Below, one piece after another: positions 1 to 61,600 of a DNA stretch of 64,000 bases. The notes under the pieces were generated by a model. That model was not told where the DNA came from, searched no databases, and saw only the letters and a list, made by a program, of their open reading frames with translations. The stretch covers positions 1 through 64,000 of the forward strand of contig JANQSF010000130.1 of NCBI GenBank assembly GCA_028284155.1, given 5' to 3'. The DNA comes from Phycisphaeraceae bacterium (lineage in GTDB: Bacteria; Planctomycetota; Phycisphaerae; Phycisphaerales; Phycisphaeraceae). How positions within the stretch are numbered: the stretch's first letter is position 1; each line of letters starts with the position of its first letter. The position numbers and the translations under genes were made by a program.

Positions 1-120
1 CTCTACTCGTCGCTCGGCGTGCCGAGCGACTTCGAAGATGCTCAGTTCCGACGGATGCTGGTCAACGCGATCTTCTGGACGACGAAGCGTGATGCCAAGG
101 ACTTCGCTCACGCCGAGTGA
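1..120 (+). CDS. C-terminal end of a ThuA-like domain protein (partial)
   Basis: The frame starting at base 1 is open and ends at a TGA at 118-120, giving 39 residues that continue from outside the window. The tail contains SLGVPSDFEDAQFRRMLVNA followed by IFWTTKR. This resembles the C-terminus of ThuA-like (trehalose-utilisation, glutamine-amidotransferase fold) proteins, where a short segment of the type DF-xx-xx-FRRLLVNA-xxWA closes the domain. Such proteins are common in planctomycetes, often exported or fused to heme-binding modules. The function of this one cannot be judged from 39 residues. It converges on nadB, which ends 15 bases further on. Confidence 0.6.
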   Translation, partial: LYSSLGVPSDFEDAQFRRMLVNAIFWTTKRDAKDFAHAE

Positions 121-135
121 TCGCCCCGCCGACTG

Positions 136-1803
136 TTACGCGGCGGCCTCCGGCGGCTGCTTGCTGACGGGTACGGTGACAGGCTCCGGCGCGCCGCGTC
201 GCCAGACTTCGTGGCAATGAAACGCGTCGCGTGGCTCGGGCTGATCCTCACGGTAGTGCGTCCCGCGACTTTCCGCCCGCCACTGTGCGGCGCGGGCGAT
301 CAGCGCGCCGACAAGCAGCATATTCTGCGCTTCCCAGCCGGCACGTTCGTCGAAGATCTTGTCCAACGTGTAGCGCGCCCAGAAGTCGATCGATTCAGAT
401 ACCTCAGCCAACCGGTTGCCGTCGCGACGGATCCCGACGTGCCGCCACATGACGCTGCGCAGGCTGGACCGCACGTCGTCCAAATCGAGTTCGAGCCGAT
501 CCGACAGCGGGATGTCGGACACGACCTTCACCGGCGCGGGCGTGCCGTCGGCAGACATTTCAGCGCACGCCTCCCCCGCCGCTCTGCCGAATACAAGGCC
601 TTCTAATAGACTGTTAGATGCAAGGCGGTTTGCGCCGTGAAGGCCCGTGCAGGTCGCCTCGCCGCAGGCGTACAGCCCCGCTACATTCGTTCGGCCGGCG
701 GAGTCCGTCCGGACGCCCCCCACCATGTAATGCGCCGACGGATGAACGGGGATCGGATCGACGCCCGGATCGATCTCGAACCCACTGAGGACCTGGGCGA
801 TGTGCGGGAACCGCTCGGCGAACCGGCCCGAACCAAGATGTCTGCAATCGAGGTAGACGTGCGTCGCGTCGCTCTTGGCCAACTGGTTCAGGATCGCCCG
901 CGAAACCACGTCGCGTGGGGCGAGCTCAGCCATCTCGTGGTATTCGGGCATGAACCGCACACCGTCGCGGTCAATCAGGTGCGCCCCCTCGCCGCGCACA
1001 GCTTCCGTGATTAGCGAGCGCGCAGCGCCGGCGACGTAGAGCGTGGTCGGGTGGAACTGCACAAATGCCATGTCGGCCAATTCCGCGCCGGCCCGGTATG
1101 CCATGGCGACGCCGTCACCGGTCGCGGACGACGGGTTCGTCGATTCGCGATAGACCTGCCCACAACCACCGGTCGCGAGAATGACCGCCCGCGCCCAGAT
1201 CACTTGAAGCCCGTACTTGGGGTGATGCGTCACCGCGCCCACGCAGCGCGGCGACGAACCGTCCACCGTGATCAGGTCGAGCACGAAGCACTGCTCGAAG
1301 ACCCGCACGCGGTCGAGGCTGCGCACGTGCGCGTCGAGCGTGCCCATGAGCGCACGCCCCGTCGCGTCGCCGTCGGCGTGCAGGATGCGCGACCGGGTGT
1401 GACCGCCCTCCCTGCCAAGCGAAAGCGCGTCGCCGTTGGTGTGATCGAACGGCATGCCCCATCCGATCAGCTCGTCGATGCAACCCGGCCCGGCTTCGAC
1501 CGTCCGCCGAACGACGTCGGGGTCGCACAGGTCGCCGCCCGCACTCAGCGTGTCCTGAATGTGGGCGTCGAACGAGTCCGCCCCGTCCACCACGGCCGCG
1601 ATACCGCCCTGGGCCCAGAAGGTGTTCGAGTGCTTGATGCCGCCCTTGAGCGCGACAATGACCTCGCTGTGCTCAGACGCCGCGATGGCGGCGCGATAAC
1701 CCGCGACCCCCCCACCGATGACGAGGACGTCTGTAAAGATCTGCGAGAGCAGCGTGGCCCGAAACGGGATCAGGTAGCGACGTTGTTCAAGAACCGGATG
1801 CAT
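136..1803 (-). CDS. nadB: L-aspartate oxidase
   Basis: L-aspartate oxidase oxidises L-aspartate to iminoaspartate with FAD, the first step of de novo NAD synthesis. The 555-residue protein has the N-terminal dinucleotide-binding motif VIGGGVAGYRAAIAA near residue 28. The family signatures REGGHTRSRILHADGDATG and QFHPTTLY follow, and near residue 360 comes HYMVGGV, then the FAD-contacting ACGEATCTGLHGANRLASNS. The C-terminal helical domain characteristic of the succinate dehydrogenase flavoprotein/NadB superfamily is present. NadB is preferred over SdhA because the protein stands alone, with no sdhB or sdhC nearby, and has NadB length. The start is an ATG at 1803; no strong ribosome site is visible. 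It lies 24 bases after a lipoprotein gene on the same strand. nadA and nadC are not in the window. Confidence 0.93.
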   Translation of the reverse strand: MHPVLEQRRYLIPFRATLLSQIFTDVLVIGGGVAGYRAAIAASEHSEVIVALKGGIKHSNTFWAQGGIAAVVDGADSFDAHIQDTLSAGGDLCDPDVVRRTVEAGPGCIDELIGWGMPFDHTNGDALSLGREGGHTRSRILHADGDATGRALMGTLDAHVRSLDRVRVFEQCFVLDLITVDGSSPRCVGAVTHHPKYGLQVIWARAVILATGGCGQVYRESTNPSSATGDGVAMAYRAGAELADMAFVQFHPTTLYVAGAARSLITEAVRGEGAHLIDRDGVRFMPEYHEMAELAPRDVVSRAILNQLAKSDATHVYLDCRHLGSGRFAERFPHIAQVLSGFEIDPGVDPIPVHPSAHYMVGGVRTDSAGRTNVAGLYACGEATCTGLHGANRLASNSLLEGLVFGRAAGEACAEMSADGTPAPVKVVSDIPLSDRLELDLDDVRSSLRSVMWRHVGIRRDGNRLAEVSESIDFWARYTLDKIFDERAGWEAQNMLLVGALIARAAQWRAESRGTHYREDQPEPRDAFHCHEVWRRGAPEPVTVPVSKQPPEAAA

Positions 1804-40651: not shown

Positions 40652-43600
40652 ATGAATATCAAGAGTGCGCGTCCCTGGCTGTGTGATGTTCTGCCGACGC
40701 TTCCGACGCGGATGCCCCCACCGCCCCCACTGGCGTGTCGTGGTGGCGGCGATGCCCGTGCGCGGCGGCACACCTTTGCGGCGGTGGAAGCGTTGGAACA
40801 GCGCGTCCTACTTTCGTCGTTCGTGCTGCTGAACCCGACGGCAACATCCGACGTTGCAATGGGGCCTGCGCCCGCATGGTTCACTGTTCCCGATGCGTCG
40901 CCCGTCGAGCTGTCGGCGTGCGGCGTTCGGCCGGCCAGCGCCCCGCTTCAGGCGCAAGGCTCGGGCCAATTGCCCATTGCGTTTGGCCAAACGGCAGTCG
41001 GGGAAATCAGCGACCCCGTTGCGGACGAGTGGTTGTTCGATTTGACGATTTCAGCGGCCGACTTCGATCGACCGTTCTCCATTGTGGTTGACGGCGACGG
41101 TGTGCTCCGACCCATGCTCGAACTGCTGGACACCGGCGGGACGGTGATGGCAACCGGGGCGGCTGGAACTAACACGTTCGACACGCGGATTGATGAGGTA
41201 GTGATCGATGCGGCCGACGGCGCGGGTACATACCAGGTCCGCGTGACGGCGTTCACAACAGAGATGGGCGCTTTCGAGGTTGGCGTTTCCGACGGCCCTA
41301 TTGACACCGTCACACCGATCCCGTTCTCGACCTTCATACCGGGATTCATTGACCGTACCGGCGACGAGGACTTCTACTCATTCGACGCGCAGGCGGGCGA
41401 TGTCGTCACCATCGACGCGGAGGGGACGGGTTTTTCTGCCGACGCGGAGTTGACCGGCCCCAATGGATTCGTCGCGTTAACCGGCGACAGCAATGCCCGT
41501 TCAACCGTGACGCTGACGGAGACCGGGACTTACAACGTGCGCGTGCGCGGCGGCGGCGCGGCATCGGTCGGTCACGGGCCGTTTCTGCTGAGCGTGAGCG
41601 ACCCGCAACCGATGCCGACGGCGATGTCATTCGGCGAACGTGCGCGCGTGGCTATCGGCGTCGAAGGCGACGTGGCGTTGTTCACCTTCCACGCCGACGC
41701 GGCGCACGTGGGCAAGCCGGTGTCGATCGCCGTGTCGTCAGAGTTGGCCGGCCAGTCGTTCCAAGGCCGACTTCAGTTGATCGGTCCGGACGGGATAACC
41801 GTGTTGGCCTCGACATCGGACAACAACACACATGTCTTCGCGCTGGAGATCGACGACTTCGTCCTGCCGGCTGAGGGTGACTACTCGGTCCGGTTCTTCG
41901 ACAGTGGCAACGACCATGTCGGCAATTTCCTGATCGGCATCAGCGATCAGCCGACCCAGTCGGCGACGCCCCTGCCCGCGTTCAACACGACCGTCTCCGG
42001 CTCGATCAACCTGCTGGGCGACGTGGACGAGTACACGTTCACGGGCGCGGTCGGCCAGGTCGTCACCGTCGAGCGCACATCGGGAGGCTCGACGGACATC
42101 ACGCTGATCGCGCCGGACGGGACGGTAGTCGGCGGCGGCGGCGTAAACGACTCACTGATTAACCTGGTCACGTTACCGCAGGCCGGTACGTACACCATTC
42201 GCGTCGAGCCGCGCAACGGCACGGTCGGCACTGAATTGGATAACACGGGCGGGTATAGCTTCGTCGTCTGGACGCCGACGCGCGACCCCATACCGACACC
42301 GATCGCGTTCGGGCAGTCGCTGCCCGCATTGGTCGGCATCCGCGGGGATATCGTCGAGTTCTCGCTCGACGTACAGCCGGAGCATGTTGGGAAGCAAGTC
42401 TCGATCGTCGCTTCAGCCGAATCGAGTGGTCGCGGGTTCAACGGCCGACTGCAACTGATCGGGCCGGACGGTTCGACCATCGTCGCCAGTGTGGCGGACA
42501 ACAACACGCACGTCTTTGCGCAGGAGATCGACGACTTCGTCCCGACCGAGGCTGGGCTTTACACGATCCGCTACTTTGACAGCGGTCACGACCAAACGGG
42601 CGGCTTCACAATTGGCGTCAACACGCAGCCGCTTGAGACACCCCTGCCGTTGCCGGCATTCAATACGACGATCACCGGCGCGATCAACGAATTAGGGGAC
42701 GTTGACGACTACACGTTCGACGCGACCGCCGGTCAGGTCGTGACGATTCAACGTCTGACCAACGGTTCGATCGATATGACACTGTTCGGTCCGGGAGGGT
42801 CGGTCGTCGCGGGCGGCGGCGTCAACGACAACACGCTGCTGAACCTGGTGACACTTCCAGACGACGGGGAATACACGCTACGGATCGAGCCGAGTAACGG
42901 TTCCGTTGGCACTGAACTGGACAACACCGGCGCGTACAGCTTTGTGGTCTGGACGCCGGAACGTTCGCCGACGCCGATCCCGATCACGTTCGGTCAATCC
43001 CTGCCGGGTGAGGTTGCCGTCCGCGGTGACCGCGTGCTCTACAGCCTCGAAGTTCTGCCGGAGCACGTCGGACGTCCGGTGTCGATCATGATGACCCGCG
43101 AGGCGACTGGTCGCGGTTTCAACAATCGGCTTCAGTTGCTGCGTCCGGACGGGTCCGTGTTGGCCAGCGGGGCGGACAACAACAGCCATGTTTTCAGCTT
43201 GGAGATCGACGACGTCACTCTGCCCGAAGCGGGCACGTACACCATCCTCGCGTTCGACAGCGGCAACGACCAACTGAGTCGGTTCAGCGTGGCCGTCAGC
43301 GATCAGCCGACCGAGACTCCGACGGCTGTGCCGATCGGCAGCAAGACGGCCGGCGTGCTAGAGCCGTTCGCCGACGTCGATGAATACACCGTCACGTCGA
43401 CGAGCGGTCAGGCGATCACGCTGTACGTGTCGTCGGCGTCCAGCCAGGACACCGACCTGACCGTTTTACGGCCGGACGGCACGGTCGCGGCTAGCGCCAC
43501 CGGCGGCACCGATTCGACGTTGAGCTTCACGCCCGATGTCGGCGTTACTTACACCGTGCGGATCGAGCCGGGCGGCGGCACGATCAATACCACGCTTACC

Positions 43601-46600
43601 GAAATCGGTGTTTACTTACTCGAAGTCAGCGACGCGTCGAACCCGGCGCAGTACATTCTCGACGCCGGCGGCGACGTTCCGATCGCGTTTGGCCAAACGA
43701 TCGCCGCGACCATCGACAACGCGGCCGACCTGGACAACTACGTTTTTGACGGCCAGCGCAATCAGGTCGTGCGGATCAGCGTCGCGTCGGGGCGTGACCG
43801 CGGCGCGCAGTTGCGTGCCGACGTGCGTTTGTTCGGACCGGGCGGCGTGCAGATCGGCTCCAGCACGAGCGGCAACCACGCCGATTTCAAAGATTTCACC
43901 CTGCCTTCTAACGGGCAGTACCGCATTGAAGTTTCCGGTCGCGGCAGCGATGTCGGGCCGTACGTCGTCGGGCTGAGCGATCGGCCGGTCGAGCAAAACA
44001 CCGCCCCCACGTCGACCCTCTTCAATATCGCGACCGATCCCGCAGACGGCTACATCGGGGATGGACCCGGTGGGCCTTTCAGTAGCGATACGTTATCGAG
44101 CATCCGCGTCGGCAACGGCGGCAGCACGCCAAACCGAGTGTTCCTCAATGCGCTCTACTTCTTCGAGTTGCCGTCATTGACACCCGGCACGATCGACCAG
44201 GCGAGTTTCTCGTTCCCGTACGTCGATGACAATTCCGGTGTACAGATGAACGTGTGGGGGCTTGGTTACGTCTCGACGCCGACGCTTGACACCGACTTGA
44301 CACTCAATGGCAGCAACGACGCCGACGCCGGTCTGGGGGTCGCGTCGCGCACGTTGATCCAGGCAGATGTCGTCAACGGCATCCCCGACCCGAACAACAC
44401 GGCCGTGGAGGTGTCAACAGACGCCACAGGCGGCGCGAACCTCACAGCGTTTATCAAGAGTCTTTACGCCGCCGGCGCGCAGCCGGGCGACTTTGCCGTA
44501 ATCCGGCTCAGCCCGCAGCAGGGCAGCGATCCCAACGCCGGTGGCACAACCGGGCACGTCGTCGGCTTCAGCGAACTGGATGGTGGCGCGATCCAGCCGA
44601 CGCTCACGTTCACCGCCGACGCCGTACCCGTCCTGACGCCCGGTGAACAGGTCGGCGGTTCGATCGAACGATTGGCCGACGAGGACATCTACCGCTTCGA
44701 TTACAACAACCAGACCGATCTGATCCTTCGTGCCCGAAGCACGGACAACACGCGCGCGTTGGACATGCAGATCATCTCGCCGGCCGGCACGGTCGTGCGC
44801 AGCTTCAGCGGCACGACCGTCGGCGGCAACATCGTGTTGCCCGTGCCCGGTCAATACTCCGTGCTCCTGCGCGCCAGTGCCACGTCGAACAACGACGGCA
44901 CGCGGACGACCGATTACCTGTTGGACTACGACTACTCTGCGGCAACCCCGTCGACCTTACCGGGCGAGCCGAGCGGTCCGATCGCGAGTCTGTTCAGCGT
45001 CGCCGTCCCGGGCACACCGACCGGCGCGGGCGAGCCGCCTGTGGCCGTGCCGCCGCTGCCGACCGTCGTGCAGGGCTTCGACGATCTGGGCCCGACGAAT
45101 CTGCCATTCGAGTCGCCCTTCATCGGGCAGTTTCCAAGCGGCAGCGGACGACACGTTTTCACCTTTGATGCCACAGCCGGTGACACGGTGTTGATCGATG
45201 TCGAAGCGACGTCGCGGACGAGTGTCAGCGCGGTGCTGCGCGACCCGAACGGCGTGCCCATCAGCACCGACACCAACGGCGGCAGCGCATCGGTCGGCGG
45301 CACGATCTTCGCGACCGGCACGTACGAGTTGGAAGTGACCGGCAGCGGCGGTGGCGGGTTCGTCGTGACGTCGTCCAGTCGCAATGCGCAGGTTTCGACT
45401 CAGATCGTGCTCAACGATCCGGGCCTGGTTACCACGTTAGACACACCAGCCGGCCAACAGATCTACACCTTCGATCTGGCCACACCGACCACCGTCGACC
45501 TGCGTGTCGATCCGATCAACGGCAGCCTGTTCGATAGCCTTCTGATCCTCGAAGGGCCTGACGGCCAACAAGTTGCCGCGACCAACAGCGGCACGTCGTC
45601 CGTGCTCAACGACCTGCACCTTTCGGCGACGGGCACGTACACCGTTGTCGTTCGGCCGTCACTGCCCTCGGGCGGGCACGGCGCATATGTGATCAGCCTG
45701 AACACCGGGACGACCACCACAATCACGCCCGATGTCGATGGCACGATCGGGTTCGGTGAAAACGCCTCGACCACCATCGACGGCGCGAACCCCGAGACGC
45801 AACTCACATTCGATGTGCTGCCCGATCAAGTCGGCAAACCCGTTTCGGTCGTTGTATCAAGAAACCTGACGGGCGCGGGATTCCAAAGCCGGCTGCGTGT
45901 CTTTGGGCCCGACAATGCCTTGCTGGCCAGTGTGTCGGACAATAACAGCCACGTCTTCGCCCTGGAGATCGACGACCTGATCCTGCCGGTCGCGGGCACT
46001 TACACAATTCAACACTTCGATAGTGGCAACAACAACTCCGGCAACTTTACGATCGCACTGAGCGACCAGCCGATCGAGACGCCGTCGCAACTTGGCGGGT
46101 CGCTGCTGCGCTTCACGTTCGACGACCAAACCGACCCGACCGCTAATTTGGGCACGCTGGGCTCGAACCATGATGGCGACCTGCGCGGCAACGCTACGTT
46201 TGTTCCCTTCGCCGGCGGCCACGCGGTGTCGCTGGATGGCAACAACAGCGTCGTCTCAGTGGGTGGGAGCGGGTCGTTGCTCAATGTCGGCGACGCCGAC
46301 TTCTCCATTTTCGCCCGCGTGCAGACATCGAGCGCCGAGCCGGGTCAAACGGACCATCGATTCATCGTCGGGCGTGACAACACGGGATTCGACCCCACGC
46401 ACGCCGTCCTGATCCAGCGCGACACCGGCATCCCCAAATTCAGCTTGGTCGATGGCGTCGATTTCGTCGTTGTGGCCGGTACGACCCCGATCAATGATGG
46501 AGTCCCACACGAACTGCTCGCCGTGCGCGAAGGCGATGAGATGAAGCTGTTTGTCGATGGGGTGCTCGAAGGGTCCGCCGTCCTCCCCGGGGGATTCGGC

Positions 46601-49600
46601 ACGGCCGACACGAATGCCCCGCTGATGATCGGCGGCCGGCTTGCCGCAGGTCTCACCACCGACGACTTCATCGGCGTGATCGACGAGGTCGCTTTCAGCA
46701 CTTCCGGATTCGCCCAGCAGGTCGCCGGCGAGATCAACCCCATCGGCGATGTGGACGAGCACACCTTCGCCGGCACGGCGGGCACGGTCATCACAGTCGA
46801 GCGGACCAGCGGCAGCCACGTCGATCTGACGCTCCTGCGCCCGGACGGCAGTGTCCTGGCGGGCGGTGGCGTCAATGATTCGTTAATCAACCTGGTGACG
46901 CTCCCGACGGACGGCGTCTATACCGTCCGTGTCGAGCCGCGCAACGGCACGGTCGGCAGCGAGTTGGACGACACCGGCAGTTATGGCTTCGCCGTCTGGA
47001 CGCCGACGCGCAACCCCGCGCCAATCTCGCTTGACTTCGGCCAGTCCGTTCCCGTGTCGATCCCAATCCGTGGCGACCGGGCTTTTCTTGAATTCGAGGC
47101 GTTGCCCGAGCACGTCGGCAAGCAGGCGTCGCTAGTCGTCTCCAGCAACTTAACGGGTGCCGGCTTCAACAGCCGACTCCAACTCCGCGATCCCGACGGC
47201 GTGCTGATCGCCAGCGCAGCGGACAACAACAGCCACGTCTTCGCGCTCGAGATCGATGACTTCACGATCGAGAAGGTTGGTACATACGAGATTCTCTTCT
47301 TCGACTCGGGGAACGACCAAACCGGTAACTTCAACATCGGGTTAAGCGATCAGCCGATCGAGTCGGCGTTCCCGCTGGGATCGCCCGAGCCCGCCCCGGA
47401 GTCGGACCTCCAGATCGTTGAGCCCGGTTGGGCCCTGACGCGCACACTGACCCTCGAGCAGGCCGTCGCGGCGCACTTCAACCCGGCGGACGGCTTGCTC
47501 TATGTCAGCCAGCGGTTGTCGTCGGGCGGGCTCTACCGCTTTGAAAACGACGGAACCGCAACGCTGCTGGACGGCTTCAGTAACCCCGGCGTGATCGGCA
47601 TCGACCCGAATGACGGGGATGTTTTCGTTGCCGAGGACTTCGGGGGCAACATCTACCGCTTGGGGTTCGGAGAGACGTCCCGATCGACGTGGGTCAGCGG
47701 GTTCCGCAGCGGCGATGACGATCCGGCTGGCATCGCCTTCGTACCCAGCGACTACACAGGAACGGTAGTCAATCCGGGCGACGCGCTGTCGGTCGATCGC
47801 GGTTCCGGGGGTTCCGACGACATCTGGCTGTGGTCCCCTGACACTGCCCAAGGTGAATCGTTGCTGCATGACGATGACGGCACGATGACGGACCCCGTTG
47901 ACATCACCGTCTCGAGCGACACGATCTACGTGGTCGATGCCAATGGTGGCGACAGCCGCATCTACATGGTCGGCGCTGGCGGCGCCCTGACACAACTGGT
48001 CACATCCGAGCCATTGGTCAACGCCAATGCCATCGACTTCGATCCGACCAGCGGCATGCTGTATGTCGGCGAACGTGCCAACCGCGTGCTCCGCGTCAAT
48101 CCGGCCACGGGCGATGTATCGGTTATGTTCTCGGGGTTTGAAAACGTTTGGTGGGGCGGGCTGGATGTGTCAGCCGACGGCACGCAGATTGCCATTTCGG
48201 AACGCACTAGTGGACAAGTGCACGTCTTCACAAATGTGGCCGCCAGCTTCAACGAGGTTGTGTCTGGGACGATCAACCCGCTCGGCGACGTTGACGAACA
48301 CACGTTCTTCGCCCTGGCCGGGACGGTCGTCACCATCGAGCGCACAAGCGGCAACTTCATCGACCTGACACTGTTTGGACCGGACGGCTCGGTCGTGGCC
48401 GGCGGAGGTGTCAATGACACCCTGCTGAACCTCGTCACGCTACCTGCTGACGGCGTCTACACCGTGCACGTGGAGCCGGCCAACGGCACGGTCGGTACCG
48501 AGTTGGACAACACGGGCAATTACAGCTTTGTCGTGTGGACACCAACGCGCGACCCCGTGCCCATCCCGATCACGTACGGCCAAGAGGTCCAGATCGACCT
48601 GCCGATCCGCGGCGACATCGCCGAATTGACCTTCGACGTGCAGGCACAGGACATCGGTAAGCAGGTTTCGATCCTCGTATCGTCAGAGTTGTCCGGGCGG
48701 GGCTACAACGGCCGACTCCAGGTACGCGATCCCAACGGAGTCCTTATCGGGAGCGTTGCGGACAACAATACTCACGTCTTCGCGCAGGAAGTCGATGACT
48801 ATGTGCTGACCGAAGTGGGCACGCACACGATCCGATTCTTCGACTCCAACCACGACCAGACGGGCAGTTTCCGCGTCGCGCTCAGCGACCAGCCGATTGA
48901 CACGACGACGGCCATCCCAGGATTCAACAGCACGGTCAATGGAAGCATCACGCCTCGTGGCGATGTGGATGAATTTACGTTCACCATGCCCCTGCCCGGG
49001 GACAACTCCGTGCTATTCAATGGTGGCGCGGAGTCAGGCGATCTGTCGGGCTGGGCTGCTGATGTCAGTGGAACCAGTTCAGGTAACGGCGACATCATTG
49101 CGTCCGTTACGTCACAACCACAAACAGGGCCGACCGTACTGCCGTTTGCTGGCTCCCGGTTCTTTACGTTTGGCAATGAAGCGGCGGGTTCTGTCGGCAG
49201 TGGAGCAGTTCTTTCTCAATCGGGAACTGCGGGACTGAATACCTCCACTCTAACGTTAAGAGGAAGAGTCCAGACGGAGACCGGCGACACTGGAGAGGCT
49301 GTCCTCACCTTCCTAGACAGTTCCGGTGGAGTGCTCGACTCACAGTCAACGGGTGTTTTAACATCCGACTTTGCGTGGACGGAGTTTCAATTCAGTGCGC
49401 CAGTCCCCGCGGCGGCGGCGGAGTGGCGGGTCGACCTGATCGGCGATTTGGGGAACGGCACTTTTATCAACGCGTTCTTCGATTCCATCGAATTGCTCAC
49501 GCCCAGTCCGTCGCGTGTCGTCACCATCGAGCGCACGAGCGGTAACCACGTCGACCTGACTCTGTTCGGCCCGGACGGCTCGGTCGTCGCCGGCGGCGGC

Positions 49601-52600
49601 GTCAATGACATTCTGCTGAATCTGGTCACGTTGCCCGACGACGGTACATACACGGTGCGCGTCGAGCCGAGCAATGGCTCGGTAGGCACAGAGTTGGACA
49701 GTACAGGCGACTACAGCTTCATTGTCCGAACACCGAGCGCCAACCCCGTTCCGACACCGATCGCGTTCGGCGAGTCCGTGCGGGTGGACCTGCCGATTCG
49801 GGGCGATGTGGCATTGCTGAGCTTCGAAGCATTGCCGGAGCACGTTGGCCAGCCGATCTCGATCGTCGCGTCGTCGAACCTGACCAGTGCCGGCTATAAC
49901 GGACGGCTGCAACTGTTTGGACCGAACAACGCATTCCTGGCAGGCGTGTCGGATAACAACACGCACGTGTTCGCACAAGAGATCGACGACTATCTATTGC
50001 CGACGGCCGGCACGTACACCATCAAGTTTTTCGACTCAGGCAATGACCAGACGGGGAGTTTCAATATCGGGCTGAGTGACCAGCCGATCCCTGCCGGAAC
50101 TGAGCCAATCGTCGCCGACGACCCTGCCCTGGCGCGTCAGATCAGCCCGGTTGGCGATGTCGATCAGTTCACCTTTGACGCGCTTCGCGGCCAGGCGTTC
50201 AATGTCTTTGTCGACGCGCTGCCGGCCAGCCTGTTCCTTGACGCAACGATCCTCGATTCCACAGGCGAGGTGCGCGCGTCGTTCACTGGTAGTAACGACG
50301 CGAACATTTCTGAGTTCGTCGCACCGGAAGACGACACGTACACGATCCGCGTCGAACCGGGCGGCGGGTCCGTTTCCGATCGGCTGGACAACACCGGCGA
50401 TTACACGATCGGGCTGGAACAGATCGTCACGACGCCCAATCTCGTCGTCACGGCCGTCAACCCACCGACTGAACCGGACATTGTCAGCGGCGACACGGTT
50501 TCGTTCAGTTTCACAGTCGAGAACATCGGCAACGCCGCGACACCCGTCAGCGACTGGTCCGACCGGGCCGTGCTGAGCACGAATGCGACCTACGGCGACG
50601 CCGACGACATCGAACTGTCCGTCGACGCGCACTCGGGTGCGCTGACGCCCGGCCAGACCTACACCGTCAACGCTACGGGCGACATCCCCGAGGGTGTGTC
50701 CGGTGACTTCTTCGTGATCGTTGAGACCGACACGAACAACCAGGTGCTCGAATTGTTCGCCGAAGACGACAACGTCACGTCGAGCGCGGCGACGTTCCAT
50801 GTCGACCCCGCGCCATACCCGGACCTCGTCATCGAAGATCTGATGGTAGAGGTCGGCGTCGTTGGTGAACCATCCACGACCGTCGCCTACTGGCAATTCG
50901 ACGACGCGACACCGGGCGATGGGCTCAACAGCGGCGATACTGTCACACTGACCGACTCGGTGGGTGGGCATGACCTGACGGCCGCGGGCTCTGGCGGCTT
51001 CACGGCCGACAGCGACCAGCCGGTCGTGAACATCCCCAACCCCGACGGGTCGGCCGGCTTCAACGGCGACCCCGTCGCGAACTTCGGTTCGCTGAACTCG
51101 CCCGGAGCGGCTACCGGCGGTGCCCGTTTGGCGACTAGCACGACCGATGCTTTCGACCTGTCCGGCCGGTCATGGACACTCGAGGGTTGGTTCAATCACA
51201 ACGGCAGCACACCGGCGGGATTCGGCGACATCATCGCCGGCACGCGCGACACGCCCGACTTCGGCGGTTTTACGCTCCGGGTGACAGCGGCGCACTTCCT
51301 GACGGCAACGTTCTTAGAATCGGGAGGCGCGGCCGACTCCTTGACCGTGCAGACATCAACTCCGATCACCAGCAACGAGTGGCACCACTTCGCGCTAATC
51401 TGGCAGGACGGCGCAGGCGCCAACGGTTCGGGCCTGGCGGAGCTGTATCTCGACGGTGCGATGGTCGGCCAGACGGACGCCCCGGCCGCGTTCGATGCGG
51501 CGGTTGCCGACAGCAACGACGAAGACGCCCTCATCATCGCCGGTCGCGAAGCCGTCGGCGAGAACAACTTCGACGGCCTGCTCGACGAGATGCGGTTCAG
51601 CGCCGTAGCTTTGTCTCCGAGTGAATTCCTCAATGCGGCTAGTGCGGCCGGCAATGCCCTTTCATTCGACGGTGTCGATGACCTGGTTCAAGTCGGCAAT
51701 CTCGGCGCTCGTCCGACCACCGGAACGATCTCGTTCTGGATGCGCGCCGATGTGGTTGAGAACTTCCGCAACCCGTTCACCACCGGCCCGATTACGGCCG
51801 ACGGGTCGATGGGCAATCAGGCGATCCGATTTGAAGAAAGCTCGAATGGCGGGTTCGTTACAATTATCGGCGCGGACAACGCGGACTTTTCCACAGGTTG
51901 GACGGCGCACAACTTCACCGGTTCTTTGGTTCAGGATCGCTGGTACCACGTCGCGCTGGCGTGGGACTCGGACAACGACCGTGTGGTCGGCTTCCTGGAT
52001 GGCCAAGAGGTGTTCGACGCGACGAACTCGACCTGGCCGTCCAACTTCAACAACGTGACGGTCGGCGCCGGCTGGTCGACTGGCAGACATTGGCAGGGGC
52101 AGATCGATGAGGTGCGCATATGGGATGTGATGCGCAACGAGAATCAGATTCACGGTGACATGAATCGGAGCCTGGCCGGCGATGAGCCCGGCCTGGTGGC
52201 GTACTACCGATTTGACGAGGCCGGCGGTACGACCGCGGTCGATAGTTCGTCGAGCGGTAATGACGGCACGCTAGGCGGCGGCAACGCTGCGGCGGAGCCG
52301 GTACGCGTCGCATCTACCGCTCCGATCACGTCGAGCACTTTGTCATTCACCGACGGCGACTTCGCCGGCTGGACGAGCGAGCCGATCAACAGCGCCGCTG
52401 GCGGGCAGACTACACAGCGCGTTTCCACCGGGGGCAACCCCGACGCGTTCTGGGAAGTGACCACTGCCACGAACGATGCGACATTCACCTTTCACTCGCA
52501 TCCATCGTTCGTCTACGACCCCGCCGACGGCCCGATCGAGTCGATCACGTTCGAACTGGAGTACATGAACATTGCGTTCTTTGGGCAGGGGCAGGTTGTC

Positions 52601-55600
52601 GGGTTCGCGCTGAAACACGGTGACTCCTACTTCGGCATTGCCGGTGATGTCACTGGCCCAGCAGGTCTTGGGACATGGAACGCGCTGTCCACTGCGGGCA
52701 CGGCTTTCGTCGAAGGCGATTTCGTTCCCCTCAACGGATCGACAGGCACGCTCGACTTCGACGGCGAACCGATCACCCTCGGCTTCCGCACGTCGAACAG
52801 CGGCGGCAATACGATCCAGGTCGGGTATGACAACTTCCACGCGACCGTCGTGACGACATCCAACGACTCGGGCGACAACAGCGGCCCTGCGCTGCCTGTG
52901 ACGACGGGATTGCTTGCTCACTTCCGCGCCGATGAAGGCGTCAGTGAGACGGGCGGACTGGTTGACCAATGGGACGACCTCTCGGGTGGCGATCACGATG
53001 TCGGCAATACCGGCGACGATCGACCGACGCTCGTCCCGGACGTCGTCAACGGACTGCCGGCACTGCGTTTCGACGGCAACGACCGCCTGCTCGGCTCGCT
53101 CGGTGAAACGCTGAGCGGTGCCTCCATCTTCGCGCTGTTCCAATACACCGTGGCCTCGTCGGACAACGACTACCTTTACACGATCGGTGACAATGGGATC
53201 AGCGGCAGTCAGATGCCTCTGTCACGTCGATCAGGTGAACGCGCTTACCACTTCGACGGCGCGGTCGCGAACTTCCCGCCGGGCACGCAGATCACCGCCA
53301 ACGAGTTCCACATCAGTGCGCAGGTGTTTGGGGAACGAGGCGCCGACTCCCATGATCTGTACTTGGATGGTAACGATACGCCGCTTTTGTCGACGAACGC
53401 GAACAATGATTACAACGTCAATGGCAACACGTTCATCGTCGGCGATTGGAATGCGGATGCGAACCATTTCGTTGGGGACTTGGTCGAGTTGATCGTCTTT
53501 GACCGCACGCTTTCCAAGAACGAGCGTGACGCGGTGGAGGATTATCTCCAGGAGCGATTAAACGTGCCCCCGACTGCCGGGGGCATCGCGGCGGAGTTCA
53601 ATGGCCTGCGACCGTCTTCGGAGTCCAATCCCTGGGTTTACTTGGGCGATCTGGATGAAGCAACCCATGTCACGGACAACGGCGATGGCACGTTTAACAT
53701 CAACGACGACGTCGGCAGTTTCCCTCCCGATAACCGTGCGCGATACCGCAAGGATGTGTCGTGGGAGTCGGGGCAGCGCGTCGTAGAGTGGCGATCGCGG
53801 ACGAATAGCGCCTCGCCCGGCACGAGCAACTACACGGTGGCTCTCAACCTGGCTACCGGCAGCAGGCTCGTCGCCGTTCATCTCGCACCGAACAGTGTGA
53901 ACTTCTTTCAGAACAGTGGCGGCCAAACCATCGGCAATTCGCAATCGATCTCGGCTGGCTACCACAGCTACCGGCTGGAAGTCGACGAGAGCGAAGCAGG
54001 GCAGGCTCGGCTGTTCGTCGACAACGTCCTGACGCTCGAAGAGCCGCTGTCGTCGTTTTCCACGACAACTGTGGAGCATATCGAGTTTGGGGCACGATCT
54101 GAGAGCGGAACATCCAGTTCAGACTGGGACTACGTCCGCATACCACAATCCCTGCCTCTCACCACCGGCCACGCCGTCACCTGGAACACAGCCAACCGTG
54201 GCGACGGCGACGCCGACGGCGGCTTCACCGAGCGCGTCACGGTCCGCAATGTCACCACCGACACCGAACTGGTCAACACCACGCTCGGCGTCGCCGACGA
54301 CCTGCCCGCCGGCGCAACGCTGCCGGGGACGTTCAACTTCAACGCGACGACCCCCGGCCGTTACCAGGTGCAGGTCACGACCGACGTGGCCGACGACTTC
54401 TTCGAGTTCAACGCCAACGGCCACGACGACGCGGAGACGAACAACACGTCGACCGTCGAGTTCGTCATTGACGGATCGGACCTGGTCGTGACCGATCTCA
54501 GCGCACCGACCGACTTGATCATCGGCGACCCGGCGGATGTGCCGATCTCCTGGACGGTCGAAAACCAGGGGCCGGCCGACACGTTCCGATCCAACTGGGT
54601 GGACCGCGTCTACTTGTCGACCGACAACGTCATCGGCAACGGCGACGACGTGCAGATCGACGAGTTCACGCGCTTCGGTGCACTCGGGTCGGGTTTGGAC
54701 TACACCCAGAATCAGACGGTCACGCTGCCCGGCGGGCTGAGGGGGCAGTTCTTCCTGTACGTGACGACCGACGCGAACAACGTCGAACCTGAGCCGGACG
54801 GTGAAGGCAATAACGACTCGGCGCTGGCGACCATTGACGTGGTCGAGCCGTACGCCGATCTGGTCGTCGAAGTTGTTACCGGGACGCCGAACAACGCGCT
54901 GAGCGGTCGGCCGATCGATATCGACTGGCGGGTGCGCAACAACGGCACGGGCACGACGAACGTCTCGTCGTGGGTCGACCGCGTTGTCCTGTCCGACGAC
55001 GACGTGCTCGACGCCGGCGACACCGAGTTGGCCCGCGTGACCCGCAACGGCACGCTGTCGGTCAACGCCAACTACACGGCGCAGACCACGGTCAACCTGC
55101 CACAGGGGATCGAAGGCAACTTCCACATTTTCGTCGTGACCGACGTCGAAGGTCAGGTCTTCGAGTTCAACTTTGAAGGCAACAACACCGGCCGAACAAT
55201 CGATCCGATCAACATTGCGCGTCTGCCCGAGCCGGACTTGGTCGTCTCAGACGCGACCAACCCGACCGAGGGGCAACCGGGGCAGATGATCTCGGTTTCT
55301 TTCGCCGTCGACAATGTCGGTGAGGGCGACGCCGAGGCGTCTTGGGTCGACCGCGTCTATCTGTCGACCGACGGCACGCTCAACGGCGCGTCGCTGTTGG
55401 CCACCGTATCGCGTGACGCCGATGTCTCCGGTCACGGCGGCGCGGGCGGTACAGGCGGGACGTACGACGTGACGACCGATGTCACCGTTCCCTCGGTCGC
55501 CGACGGCGAATACCGGATCGTCGTCGTCACCGACGACGCTGACGACGTGTTCGAGGGCCTGCCCGGCAGCGCGGGTGAGACGAACAACCTGCTTGTCAGT

Positions 55601-58600
55601 GACGATATCCTGACGGTCACGCACCCGAACCTGGTCCCGTCGATCACCAACGCGCCGGCCAACGTCACGAGCGGCGACACGTTCGCTGTGTCATTCAATG
55701 TGACCAACGCCGGCTCGGGTGACGTCGACGTGAATTGGGTTGACCGGGTCTACCTGTCGTTGGACACGACATTCGACGCCAACGACCTGTTACTGAACGA
55801 GGTCGGCCGATCCGCCCCACTGCCCTCCGGTGACACGGTCGGGGCGACCGTCGATGTGTCAACGCCCGTCAGCGTGTCGGGCACACGGTTCATCCTTGTG
55901 GTGACCGACGCGGTCAATGACGTGAACGAGGTCGGCGACGAGGGCGACAACGTCGTCTCCAGCGTCGTGCAAATCGAGTTGGCGCCGTATGCGGACCTCG
56001 AGGTATCAAACGTCGTGGTCAGCGGGTTCGACGTGACCTCGCCGAGTGACGTTTTCGTCGACGACCCGGCGACGATCACCGTCGACTGGACGGTGACCAA
56101 CAACGGCACGGGCGCGGGGCAGACTGGTTCATGGGTCGACCGCGTCTACGCCAGCACGGACGACACCTTCGGCGACGCCGACGACATCCTGTTGGCCGAG
56201 TTCCCGCACAACGGCGCACTGGCTGTCGGTGACGACTACACCGAGTCGCAGTCGTTCTTGCTGCCGCCCGCATTTCAAGGTCGTTTCCGTGTATTCGTCC
56301 ACACCGACGCGGCCGATGTGGTTTTCGAGAACAACCTGGAGGTCAATAACCGCGCCGCGTACGGTGAGTTCGTTGACGTGACGAGGGTTCCATATGCCGA
56401 CCTGATCGTCACCGACTTCAACGCCGACAACACGGGCGAGAGCGGCAACCCGATTCAGATCTCGTGGACGGTCCAGAACAACCCCGCCAACGCGATCGGC
56501 CTGACGACGGTGACGGCCTGGAACGACACCGTCGACCTGGTCACCAACGCCGACGGTACGGGCTTCATCACGCGCCTCGGCACATTCCAGCACACCGGCC
56601 ACCTGGCCGTGGGCGATTCCTACCAGCGCGTCGTCAACGCCGTGTTGCCCAACGGGATCAGCGGCGACTTCTTCCTGAAGGTCACGGCCGGGCCCGGGCC
56701 GTTTGAATTCATCTACACGGACAACAACACGGCCGTCACCGGCCCGATCACCGTCGAACTGGGCGACCCACCCGACCTGGAAGTCACGGACCTTACTGCG
56801 CCGACCACGGCGCTGAGCGGCTCGACCGTCGACCTGACGTGGATCGTGCGCAACGACGGGTTGGCCGACGCGGTGGGCACGTGGTCGGACACGGTCCGCC
56901 TACGCGACGTTTCCGACTCGACACGGGTGTTCACCCTCGGTTCGCGCACGTACACCGCGGGGCTCGACGCCGGGCTGTCGTACATGCGGCAGGAGCAGTT
57001 CAATCTGCCCGTCAATGTCGACGGCGTGTTCCGAGTCGAGGTGCAGACGAATTCAAATAACGCGCTGTTCGAGCCCAACAAAGACAACAACACGCTGCAG
57101 GACGACCAGACGATCGTCGTGTCGCTGGTCCCGCGCGCCGACCTGCAGGTTCTCTCGATCGACGCGCCGCCGACAGCCAGCGCGGGCGGAACGGCACAAC
57201 TGTCGTTTGTTGTGGTCAACCAGGGCACGGTCGCAACGAACACGCCCAACTGGACCGACCGCGTCTACCTGTCGTTGGATAACACGATCAGCAGCGACGA
57301 CGTGCTGGTCGCGTCGATTCCGAATCAGTCGGCCCTGGACCCGGGGCAGCAGTACCAGTCGTTCTCCCCCAGTTTTGTGATCCCCAAACGATTCCGGGGC
57401 GAGGTGTTCCTGATCGTCCAAGCCGATGGCTCGAACCAGCAAAACGAGTTCCCCAACGAGAACAACAACACGCAGGCCGTCGCCATCGACATCGACCCGA
57501 TCCCCCCCAGCGACCTGGTCACCAGCGACGTGATCGCGCCGGCGCAGGGCTTCGACGGCACACAGATTTCGGTGACGTACACGGTAACCAATCGCGGCGC
57601 TGGTCCGACGAACGTCGACAACTGGACGGACCAGATATGGCTGGTGAGCGATCCGGGCCGACCCGATGCGCGCAACGACGAGACCGACTTCCTGATCCGC
57701 ACGGTGGGGCGCTCAGGCGGTCTCGAAGTCAACGAGAGCGCGACGTATACGACGACGGTCACACTGCCCAAGGGCGTCACGGGCCAGTATTTCATCCTGC
57801 CGTTCAGCGACGCGTACGACGTGGTGCTGGAAGACACGAACGCCGATTTTATCAACCCGGACGACCCGAACGAACTGGACAACAACAACTACAAGGGTCG
57901 GCCGATCACGATCCTGACGACACCGCCCAGCGACCTGGCGGTGATCGATGTCGACCCGCAACCCGTGGGTCTCGGCGGCGAGCCGTTCCACGTCGAGTGG
58001 ACGGTCAGAAATATCGGCGGCAACCCGGCCGAGACCGACGCCTGGTTCGACGATGTGTACCTCAGCAGCGATCCAAACCGCAACGCGCCAGGCGCGGTGA
58101 CGTGGTTACTGGGCAGGGTGTTGCACGAAGGCGGGCTGGGTGTTGACGAGACCTACACAGGCGTGCTGGATGAGGTCCTGACTCCGGCCGCCGCGGGCAT
58201 GTATGTCATCGTCGAGTCGAATACCTTCGGCGGGCCGAACGAGCCGAACCGCAGCAACAACACCGGCTCCGCGCCGACGGTGGTTACGAACAACCCGGCC
58301 GACCTGATCGTGACCGATGTCAGCGCGTCGCAAATGAACTTCTCCGGTGAGTTGGCGACGATCAGTTGGACGGTCGAAAACGTGGGCGCGCCGGTGTGGG
58401 AAGGCACACAATACTGGACTGACCAAGTCTGGTTGTCACCCGACCCGGTGTTTATTCAGGACAGGGCCACCGCGTTGGGGCTTGTTTTCCATACACCCGA
58501 TGGCGTGCTTGGCACGAACGAAAGCTACACACAAACCGAAGAGTTCAGTCTACCCCCAGGCATTGACGGCGACTTTTACATCTACATCAGAACGAATGCC

Positions 58601-61600
58601 GGCGGCACTTTGAGTCCGTTTGGGGGCAACAACAAATCTAACCGAGGTATCTATCAAAACCGAGTCTTCGAGGACCCGTCGAACAACCTCGGCAGCACGC
58701 CGATCCCCGTCGTTTATCGCGAGCCGGATCTCTTCGTTTCCGACCTGATCGTACCGTCGTCACCTCCCCAGGCCGGCGACACGATCCCGATTACGTTTAC
58801 GGTGACGAACCTGGGCGGGCGCGACACGCGCCGCGGCAACTGGATCGACCGAATCTACCTGTCGACCGACCCTTCGCTAGACACATCCGACCAACTGCTG
58901 GGCTCCGCGGCGCGCGGCGGGCAGATTCTGCCCTCGGGTGATGACTACACGGTCACTAGGAATGTCCGCCTCCCCGATGGGATCGAGGGCGACTTCCACA
59001 TCCTCGTCTTCACCGATTCCAACTTGGAAGGCCCGTTGCCGCCTGCTGTTCCGGGGATCAATTTCGAATTCCGAATCAACCGCGTACTGGCACGCGAAGG
59101 GGAGTACCGCGACGAGGGCAACAACGTGACCGCCGCGGCGTTGCCGATCAACGCCGCGCCGTCTCCCGACCTGCGTGTCTCGCAAGTCAACGCGCCGACG
59201 AATGTCACCGTCGGCCAGGACTTCACGGTCAACTGGACGGTCACGAACTTCGGCTCAGTTCCCACGTCGGACCTCACGCCGAGTTGGGATGACTTGGTCT
59301 ATCTTTCGCGCGACGAGTTCCTCGACCTCAATGCCGACCTGTATCTGGGCAGCGTGGGTCACTTCAACGGGCTTGATGCGCTGAGCAGCTACACCGAGTC
59401 GCTCACGGTCAAAGCACCGACATCGATCGAAGGGCCTTATTACGTCTTCGTCGTAACGGACCCGGTACGGAACAGTGCGCCGCGCGGCAAAGTGTTCGAA
59501 GGCGGCGCCGAGTTGAACAATGCGACGCCGACGGCAATACCCACGATCTTCGAGTTGCCCCCGCCGGCCGATCTTCTCGCCGAAGACATCGTCGTACCTG
59601 GCGCAACACGCTCCGGCGACGACGTTGACATCTTTTTCACGGTCACCAACCTCGGCCCCAACGTGGCCAAAGGCTCGTGGTCGGACGCCGTCTACCTCTC
59701 GGTCGATGGCGTGTGGGACATCAACGACCCGTTCCTCGGCCGAGTGTCGTTCTCCGGTCAGGTCGCCGCGGGTGATTCGTACACGCAACTGCTTCAGACC
59801 AAGATCCCGCCGGTCAAACCGGGGTCGTACCGGCTGATCGTTCGGCCGGACATTCTCAATCAAGTCTTCGAAGAGGCGGGCGAGGGGAACAACTTCACCC
59901 CGTCTGCCGACACGCTCACCCTCACCGTCGACACGCTGCAATTGGGCGTGCCGTTCGACTTCACGCTCGACCCGAAACAGGAGCGGCTGTTCCAGGTCGA
60001 CGTCGGCCTTGGCCAAACGTTGCAGACCGATTTGTTCGGCACGATGGGCGCGGCGAACGAGTTGTTCATCCGCTACAACGACGTGCCGACCGGTGTCGTG
60101 TTCGACGCGGCGTATGACGGCGTTCTCATGGCCGACCAACGCGCGATCGTGCCCTCGACCGAACCGGGCACGTACTTCATCCTCGTGCGCGGGCACAGCG
60201 AACCGCGCAACGACGCGCCGGCAACCCTGCTGGCCGACACGCTGCCGTTCATGATCACCGATGTGTTCACCGACCGCGGCGGCGACAGCCGCTATGTCAC
60301 CACACGCATCACCGGCGCGCAGTTCCACGAGGACGCGATCGTCAAGCTCGTGCGCCCCGGCATCGCCGAGTACGAGCCAGTGCGCTACGAGGTGCTCGAC
60401 TCGACTCGCATCCAGGCGATCTTTGATCTGACCGACGCCCCGCACGGCCTATACGACGTCAAGGTGATCAATCCCAGCGGTGACGAGGCGGTGGTGCCCT
60501 ACCGCTACTTGGTTGAGCAGACGCTGCCGCAGGACGTGACGGTCGGCTTGGGCGGTCCGCGCGTGCTCGCCCCGGGCGCGACGGGGACCTACGGGTTCTC
60601 GGCGCTCAGCCGGACGAACATCGACACGCCATACGTTTACTTCGAGTTCGGCATCCCTGAATTGGGTTTGAACGACAAGCTGTTCAATCTGCCATTTGTC
60701 ACGTTCACGTCGAATCTTCGCGGCGCACCGGACGACGACCGGCTCGACGCGCTGGGCCTGACGGACGTGCCCTATGCGAGTTTGATCAGCGACATCAACG
60801 CCGAGCCGCACCCGGGTCAGATCCTTGCGCCGGGGTACGTGATCGACCTGGACACACGCGGCTTCGTTGGCGCGACGTTCAACGTCGAGGTCTACAAAGG
60901 GCTGGCCGAAATCCTGGAAGCGAATCCCGACGCGTTGGAGGACATCGAAGACGACGATATCGCGTTCATATTCAGCATCCTCGCCGCCGGCACGCCGATG
61001 ACGCGGGACGAGTTTATCGAACGACAAACAGCGGACGCGCTGCGCATGCGCGAAGCAATCCTGGCCGACCCCGATCCGTCGGCAGACACGTTGCAGTTCA
61101 TCGCCGCCAACGCCAACGAGTGGGTCGCGTTCCACCTAGCCGCGTTGGAGGAGGCAGGTCTGCTGCGCCCCGAGGACGAAGCCCCACCGATCCGCGAGAG
61201 TGCGCTGGTCAACAGCCTTCTCTCGACACTCGCCACAGGACTGATTGTCGGGCCGGGCGGCGAGTCGATCTTGGACGACGCAAACGAAGCCGGCGGGAAC
61301 CTCATCGACTTTTTCGAAGACGTGCGTCGGTGGTACGGACACGACCCGGATCAGGAAGGCGAACGACTCCCACCGGCCGACGAGTTTGACCAGGGGTTGA
61401 CACAGCCGACCGACTTCGAGGCGTTCAACATCTTTGTGCCATACGGCGAGGTGATGCTGGATATCCCGCCAGCCGCTGTGCCGCAGCCGCCGGATTTTGG
61501 CCGATTCCTCGAACTGCCCGGCCAGACCGCCGACCTGGCGACGCTGACCGGGCCGGTCGGCTTTGGCAGCGAGAACTTCATCCCCGCGGCGCTTGGGCCC

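Follow-up and report, generated by a model that had tools for sequence, protein, structure and literature searches.

The 64,000-nucleotide window that we analysed (contig JANQSF010000130.1 of assembly GCA_028284155.1, positions 1 to 64,000, from a Phycisphaeraceae bacterium) carries a giant gene on its forward strand. The gene is one open reading frame that starts at 40652, extends beyond the window to contig position ~80065 and encodes 13,139 residues with no internal stop. Its product contains an array of CARDB units, and the subject of this report is one unit of that array. This unit is interrupted in frame by ~3.3 kb of DNA, encoding ~1,100 residues with three LamG modules and two modules without a family match.

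The array was read with a local CARDB profile built from the intact units. It consists of contiguous, near full-length units with one exception, which starts only at profile position 20 (residue 4507). The unit before it ends at residue 3386, more than 1,100 residues ahead of this remote piece, and the missing strand A, PYPDLVIEDLMVEV (residues 3388-3401; 50813), directly follows that preceding unit. With the 16 flank residues joined to it, the remote piece scored 30.3 bits instead of 22.7, and profile positions 1-116 were restored, so the rejoined unit gives a whole-domain CARDB match. In a control, none of 4,000 random 16-mers taken from elsewhere in the protein equalled strand A in restoring the profile. 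MAFFT, unprompted, also aligns the strand A of intact units across the insert. The Pfam model PF07705 matches the remote piece alone at 23-100 of 101 positions with 21.0 bits, below its cut-off of 22.7. An intact orthologue, described below, also falls slightly short of this cut-off (21.1 bits); we therefore assign the unit to a divergent CARDB subfamily.

A first-pass annotation, made from the sequence alone, had pointed to the split by spacing. In the intact neighbouring unit, the D-L-V opening (54479) does lie 117 nt from the core Trp (54596). In the split unit the opening is at 50822, as it had stated; the equivalent core residue, placed at 54223, proved to be Phe4525 one base further on (54224), and the excess is 3,285 nt. 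The annotation was right that the frame is kept and that removing the insert restores one unit. It had the domain cut in half, but the cut falls after strand A, in the A/B loop, and leaves ~16 and ~105 residues.

Table 1. Features of the giant gene around the split CARDB unit (window coordinates).
Feature	Position	Strand	Remarks
Giant gene	40652..64000 in window	+	LEPR-XLL-like N-terminus, PPC/PPC-like, CARDB array, then He_PIG, Big_9, cadherin-like, PKD, dockerin and CshA-type repeats
Intact CARDB unit just before the split unit	50435..50809	+	local profile 1-124, 131 bits
Strand A of the split CARDB unit, first ~16 residues (PYPDLVIEDLMVEV..)	50813..50860	+	rejoining restores profile 1-116
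Inserted cassette, A/B loop	50855..54157	+	edges placed to within a few residues; L052 has no cassette here and L051 another one
LamG1 (Laminin_G_3)	50873..51652	+	PF13385, E 8e-19, 68.7 bits; absent from the G024 cassette
LamG2 (Laminin_G_3), module shared with the G024 cassette	51653..52327	+	PF13385, E 1e-18, 68.0 bits
Module without family match, starting LSFTDGDFAGW	52328..52876	+	no Pfam, NCBIfam or PDB-sequence match
LamG3 (weak Laminin_G_3)	52877..53587	+	PF13385, E 1.6e-5, 25.6 bits, just below the curated cut-off
Module without family match, AAEFNGLRPS start, SDWDYVRIPQ end	53588..54148	+	no Pfam, NCBIfam or PDB-sequence match
Strands B to G of the split CARDB unit	54158..54475	+	PF07705 23-100 of 101; 69% identical to G024
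14 further CARDB units, contiguous, without such an insert	54476..59926	+	local profile

We found the CARDB subfamily of the post-insert unit at a strong E-value only in the window genome and in two metagenome-assembled genomes (MAGs), ARS65 (G024; loci L051/L036) and PL25a_bin.150 (G018; L052/L037). Neither the other members of the 51-genome family set nor the class and phylum samples (~400 each) gave a strong match. The three genomes show three states at one site. In PL25a_bin.150, the orthologous unit is uninterrupted (DLVPLSLVIVADQSAKQLTIDWDVTNQG...) and matches PF07705 over 1-98 of 101 positions. In ARS65, the same site is interrupted by one LamG and an F5/8 type C domain (PF00754, E 4e-13), and the window has five modules there. 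The first-pass annotation had reckoned with a related gene lacking the interruption, and the PL25a_bin.150 orthologue is one. The strand A flank is conserved between the window and ARS65 despite their differing inserts. As the junction is common to independent MAGs, it is no assembly artefact.

Performing AlphaFold2 modelling of the split unit of ARS65 (514 residues), we obtained a predicted local distance difference test score (pLDDT) of 95 for strand A and ~94 for the remote part, with mostly low values in the insert. VIA-align matched this model to the solved CARDB structure 3idu_B with Z 13.2 and a root mean square deviation (rmsd) of 2.0 Å over 105 of 110 residues, in the model range 1..514. 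In the host, confidence is high for residues 1-13 and 413-514, and therefore both flanks take part in the match. The orthologue is thus predicted to have the immunoglobulin-like (Ig-like) CARDB fold. The model of the window segment (1,200 residues) was poor overall, with a pLDDT of 92 for strand A; over 1..1194 it matches single Ig-like domains with 85-96 residues and Z up to 10.5. The models support strand A and the distant remainder forming one sandwich, as the first-pass annotation had expected of the two flanks. The unit fits the A1-B-A2 insertion pattern, with a discontinuous host sequence and a host fold that is continuous by prediction.

The profile results could also be read without any nesting. 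The first 16 residues would be a stray linker, and the domain after the cassette would be a shortened CARDB that either has no strand A or borrows the end of the last inserted module as its first strand. Strand A is indeed short, the second piece is recognisable alone at 22.7 bits, and in C35 of the same genome an apparently nested LamG proved to lie between two complete units. However, when 10-20 native residues upstream of the remote piece were included, the profile start stayed at 20-21 in both the window unit and the ARS65 orthologue, while the flank restores position 1. The conservation of this flank next to different inserts and its place in the modelled sandwich speak for nesting as well, and we consider the linker reading hardly tenable.

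The LamG-like modules named by the first-pass annotation were recovered as three PF13385 matches; the carbohydrate-binding-like character that it also gave the insert is putative for every module. LamG1 and LamG2 lie above the curated cut-off of 27.6 bits and belong to Laminin_G_3, LamG3 lies just under it, and the two further modules have no Pfam or NCBIfam match. The second of these (53588..54148) is possibly another concanavalin A-like sandwich. In the window model, the LamG2 region resembles sialidase lectin-like domains (Z ~9.5, rmsd 3.7). LamG2 carries the element YxRFDE..D.S..G.DG.LGG at its C-terminal end, and in LamG1 and LamG3 the corresponding element is N-terminal; judged by this motif, LamG2 looks as if it were in a permuted phase relative to the other two. 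The base composition of the insert is near that of the host gene (GC 0.618 vs 0.626-0.628; GC at third codon positions 0.76 vs 0.79-0.83), and we saw no clear signal of foreign origin. A recent donor within the genome was looked for and none was found, the best other copy being 38% identical. Given this host-like composition and the distance of the nearest genomic copy, the cassette is not a fresh capture. Repeats at its edges are not to be expected at such divergence.

The first-pass annotation had proposed that a folded domain took up a whole cassette in its interior. The interior position holds. Capture in one event probably does not, since the ARS65 cassette has only one LamG in common with that of the window. 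In a 20-row LamG tree, LamG2 and the ARS65 LamG are sisters (support 93/84), and the two have the same start (AGNAL.FDG) and the same end (RVASTAPI). From the two filled sites and the one empty site, a stepwise origin seems most likely. One LamG would have been captured in the loop in the common ancestor of the window genome and ARS65. The window lineage may then have added LamG1 before this shared module and the two no-match modules and LamG3 after it, and the ARS65 lineage may have added the F5/8 type C module. Such accretion would have proceeded by in-frame recombination.

Two other histories would leave the nesting itself untouched. The window lineage and ARS65 might each have gained a LamG of the same subfamily, with the loop as a repeated landing site. 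LamGs of this type are frequent across the class, and LamG2 and the ARS65 LamG are 41-45% identical compared with 52-70% for the flanking CARDB repeats. However, a faster-evolving module would produce an equal gap, and the sister placement and the shared ends argue for one capture; we regard independent gains as unlikely. Alternatively, the filled form could be ancestral and the empty orthologue could have lost its cassette. The empty state is known here from a single orthologue, which differs upstream too, with a Big_9-type unit in place of a CARDB. Yet among 186 CARDB units from 16 giant proteins of the family and order, an A/B-loop split by whole modules occurs only in the window/ARS65 pair, so an intact unit must once have existed before the split. 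The nested architecture would also survive a precise loss. Deletion appears quite improbable to us.

In summary, the profile, the orthologues and structure prediction support nesting. We are highly confident of a nested-domain architecture in which a lectin-like cassette lies in the CARDB A/B loop and strand A packs across it, with a probable stepwise origin and a putative sideways display. Some points weigh against this reading. Because of the 1,200-residue limit, the last CARDB strand is missing from the window model, and the models are confident for the host domain only, the insert being mostly below pLDDT 50. The alignment fed to AlphaFold2 already had strand A placed across the insert. 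The sister support of 93/84 is just under a strict threshold, which leaves some probability for separate captures of related LamGs at this site. We take the AlphaFold2 models as support for one sandwich and not as independent proof.

The likely role of this architecture is a putative display of lectin-like modules from an Ig-like stalk. The folded CARDB would keep the stalk continuous, and the cassette would project sideways as a branch. In this way, putative ligand-binding modules could be presented without lengthening the stalk; that they bind glycans is conceivable from fold resemblance. More speculatively, the giant surface proteins of Phycisphaeraceae may repeatedly take up and exchange lectin-like modules in the loops of their Ig-like repeats. 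Their fibres would then be branched instead of linear, and strand A would persist as a docked stub through changes of the cassette. We offer this wider idea only tentatively. The present case points to branching as an option for giant bacterial adhesin-like proteins. The series of empty, two-module and five-module states at one loop of a small domain makes the tolerance of the Ig-like fold for large insertions directly testable. The case also suggests that end-to-end domain annotation misreads such proteins: Pfam reads a truncated CARDB here and the first strand is lost.

Domain insertion as such is well known. A recent survey (Schaeffer et al. 2026; PMC13114784) reports it in 20% of multidomain proteins; nested and multi-level cases are known, and the insert is as a rule smaller than its host (median 115 vs 199 residues). 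Immunoglobulin, concanavalin and lectin receive no mention in the main text of that survey. In contrast to those typical A1-B-A2 insertions, the window places five modules in a ~120-residue host, and the ~1,100-residue insert is about nine times the size of the unit. Its size is unusual, and so is the apparent addition of modules at both edges of the shared LamG. The rejoined unit resembles the PF07705 CARDB of PF1109 (PDB 3idu/2kl6) in profile, in predicted fold and in tandem array context. However, the PF1109 domain and nearly all units here are continuous, while the window unit is broken in its A/B loop by ~1,100 residues. Laminin_G_3 modules of bacterial extracellular proteins are widespread here, 46 of the 51 genomes of the family having them; in the contexts inspected they mostly stand end to end with other domains, unlike those of the window, which sit within another domain. 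Very long genes with carbohydrate-binding domains have been reported in Planctomycetes-Verrucomicrobia-Chlamydiae bacteria (PMC12057145). The window gene is alike in its great length and differs by its nested modules; LamG, CARDB and cadherin are unmentioned in that paper, and the retrieved passages do not take up nested modules.

Other candidate nested units were also considered. The LamG in an Ig-like repeat of C35 was dropped, as a wider profile, built on two units of which one is the C35 unit itself, finds the following unit complete. A LamG pair in G012 is ambiguous, since the following Big_9 unit may have its own first strand. A LamG in a Big_5-like unit of G015 is no more than suggestive, as joining brings the score to just 17.1 bits against 14.0 before. 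He_PIG, cadherin-like, PKD, Big_5 and SibA repeats were also scanned automatically, and no further splits were flagged at the thresholds used.

A second split domain is present in the window protein at 48923-49729, where a PPC unit matches profile positions 2-25, is broken by a 172-residue insert and continues with 26-98; this insert is a module without an assigned family. In the giant protein of locus L038 (G007:C8), a Big_5-like unit (residues 2287-2531) is visibly interrupted by ~130 residues without a Pfam match. Because of these two units, we conclude that domain nesting recurs in such giants but is rare. Several CARDB units (in L042, L040, L043, L012 and others) have extensions of ~30-80 residues near the C-terminal end, in corresponding units of different genera.

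Upstream in the window protein, a LamG module (~46190-46708) and a ScyD/ScyE-like beta-propeller (~47370-48247) are inserted between PPC units; the ARS65 and PL25a_bin.150 orthologues, as far as they are available, have neither of them between PPC units. The giant gene is placed in Planctomycetota by its LEPR-XLL-like N-terminus, whose match is slightly under the cut-off, by the nearest named relatives, which are two 'Phycisphaeraceae bacterium' MAGs, and by the adjoining genes, which encode PSD/PSCyt-type proteins, an HXXSHH-type protein and a sulfatase.
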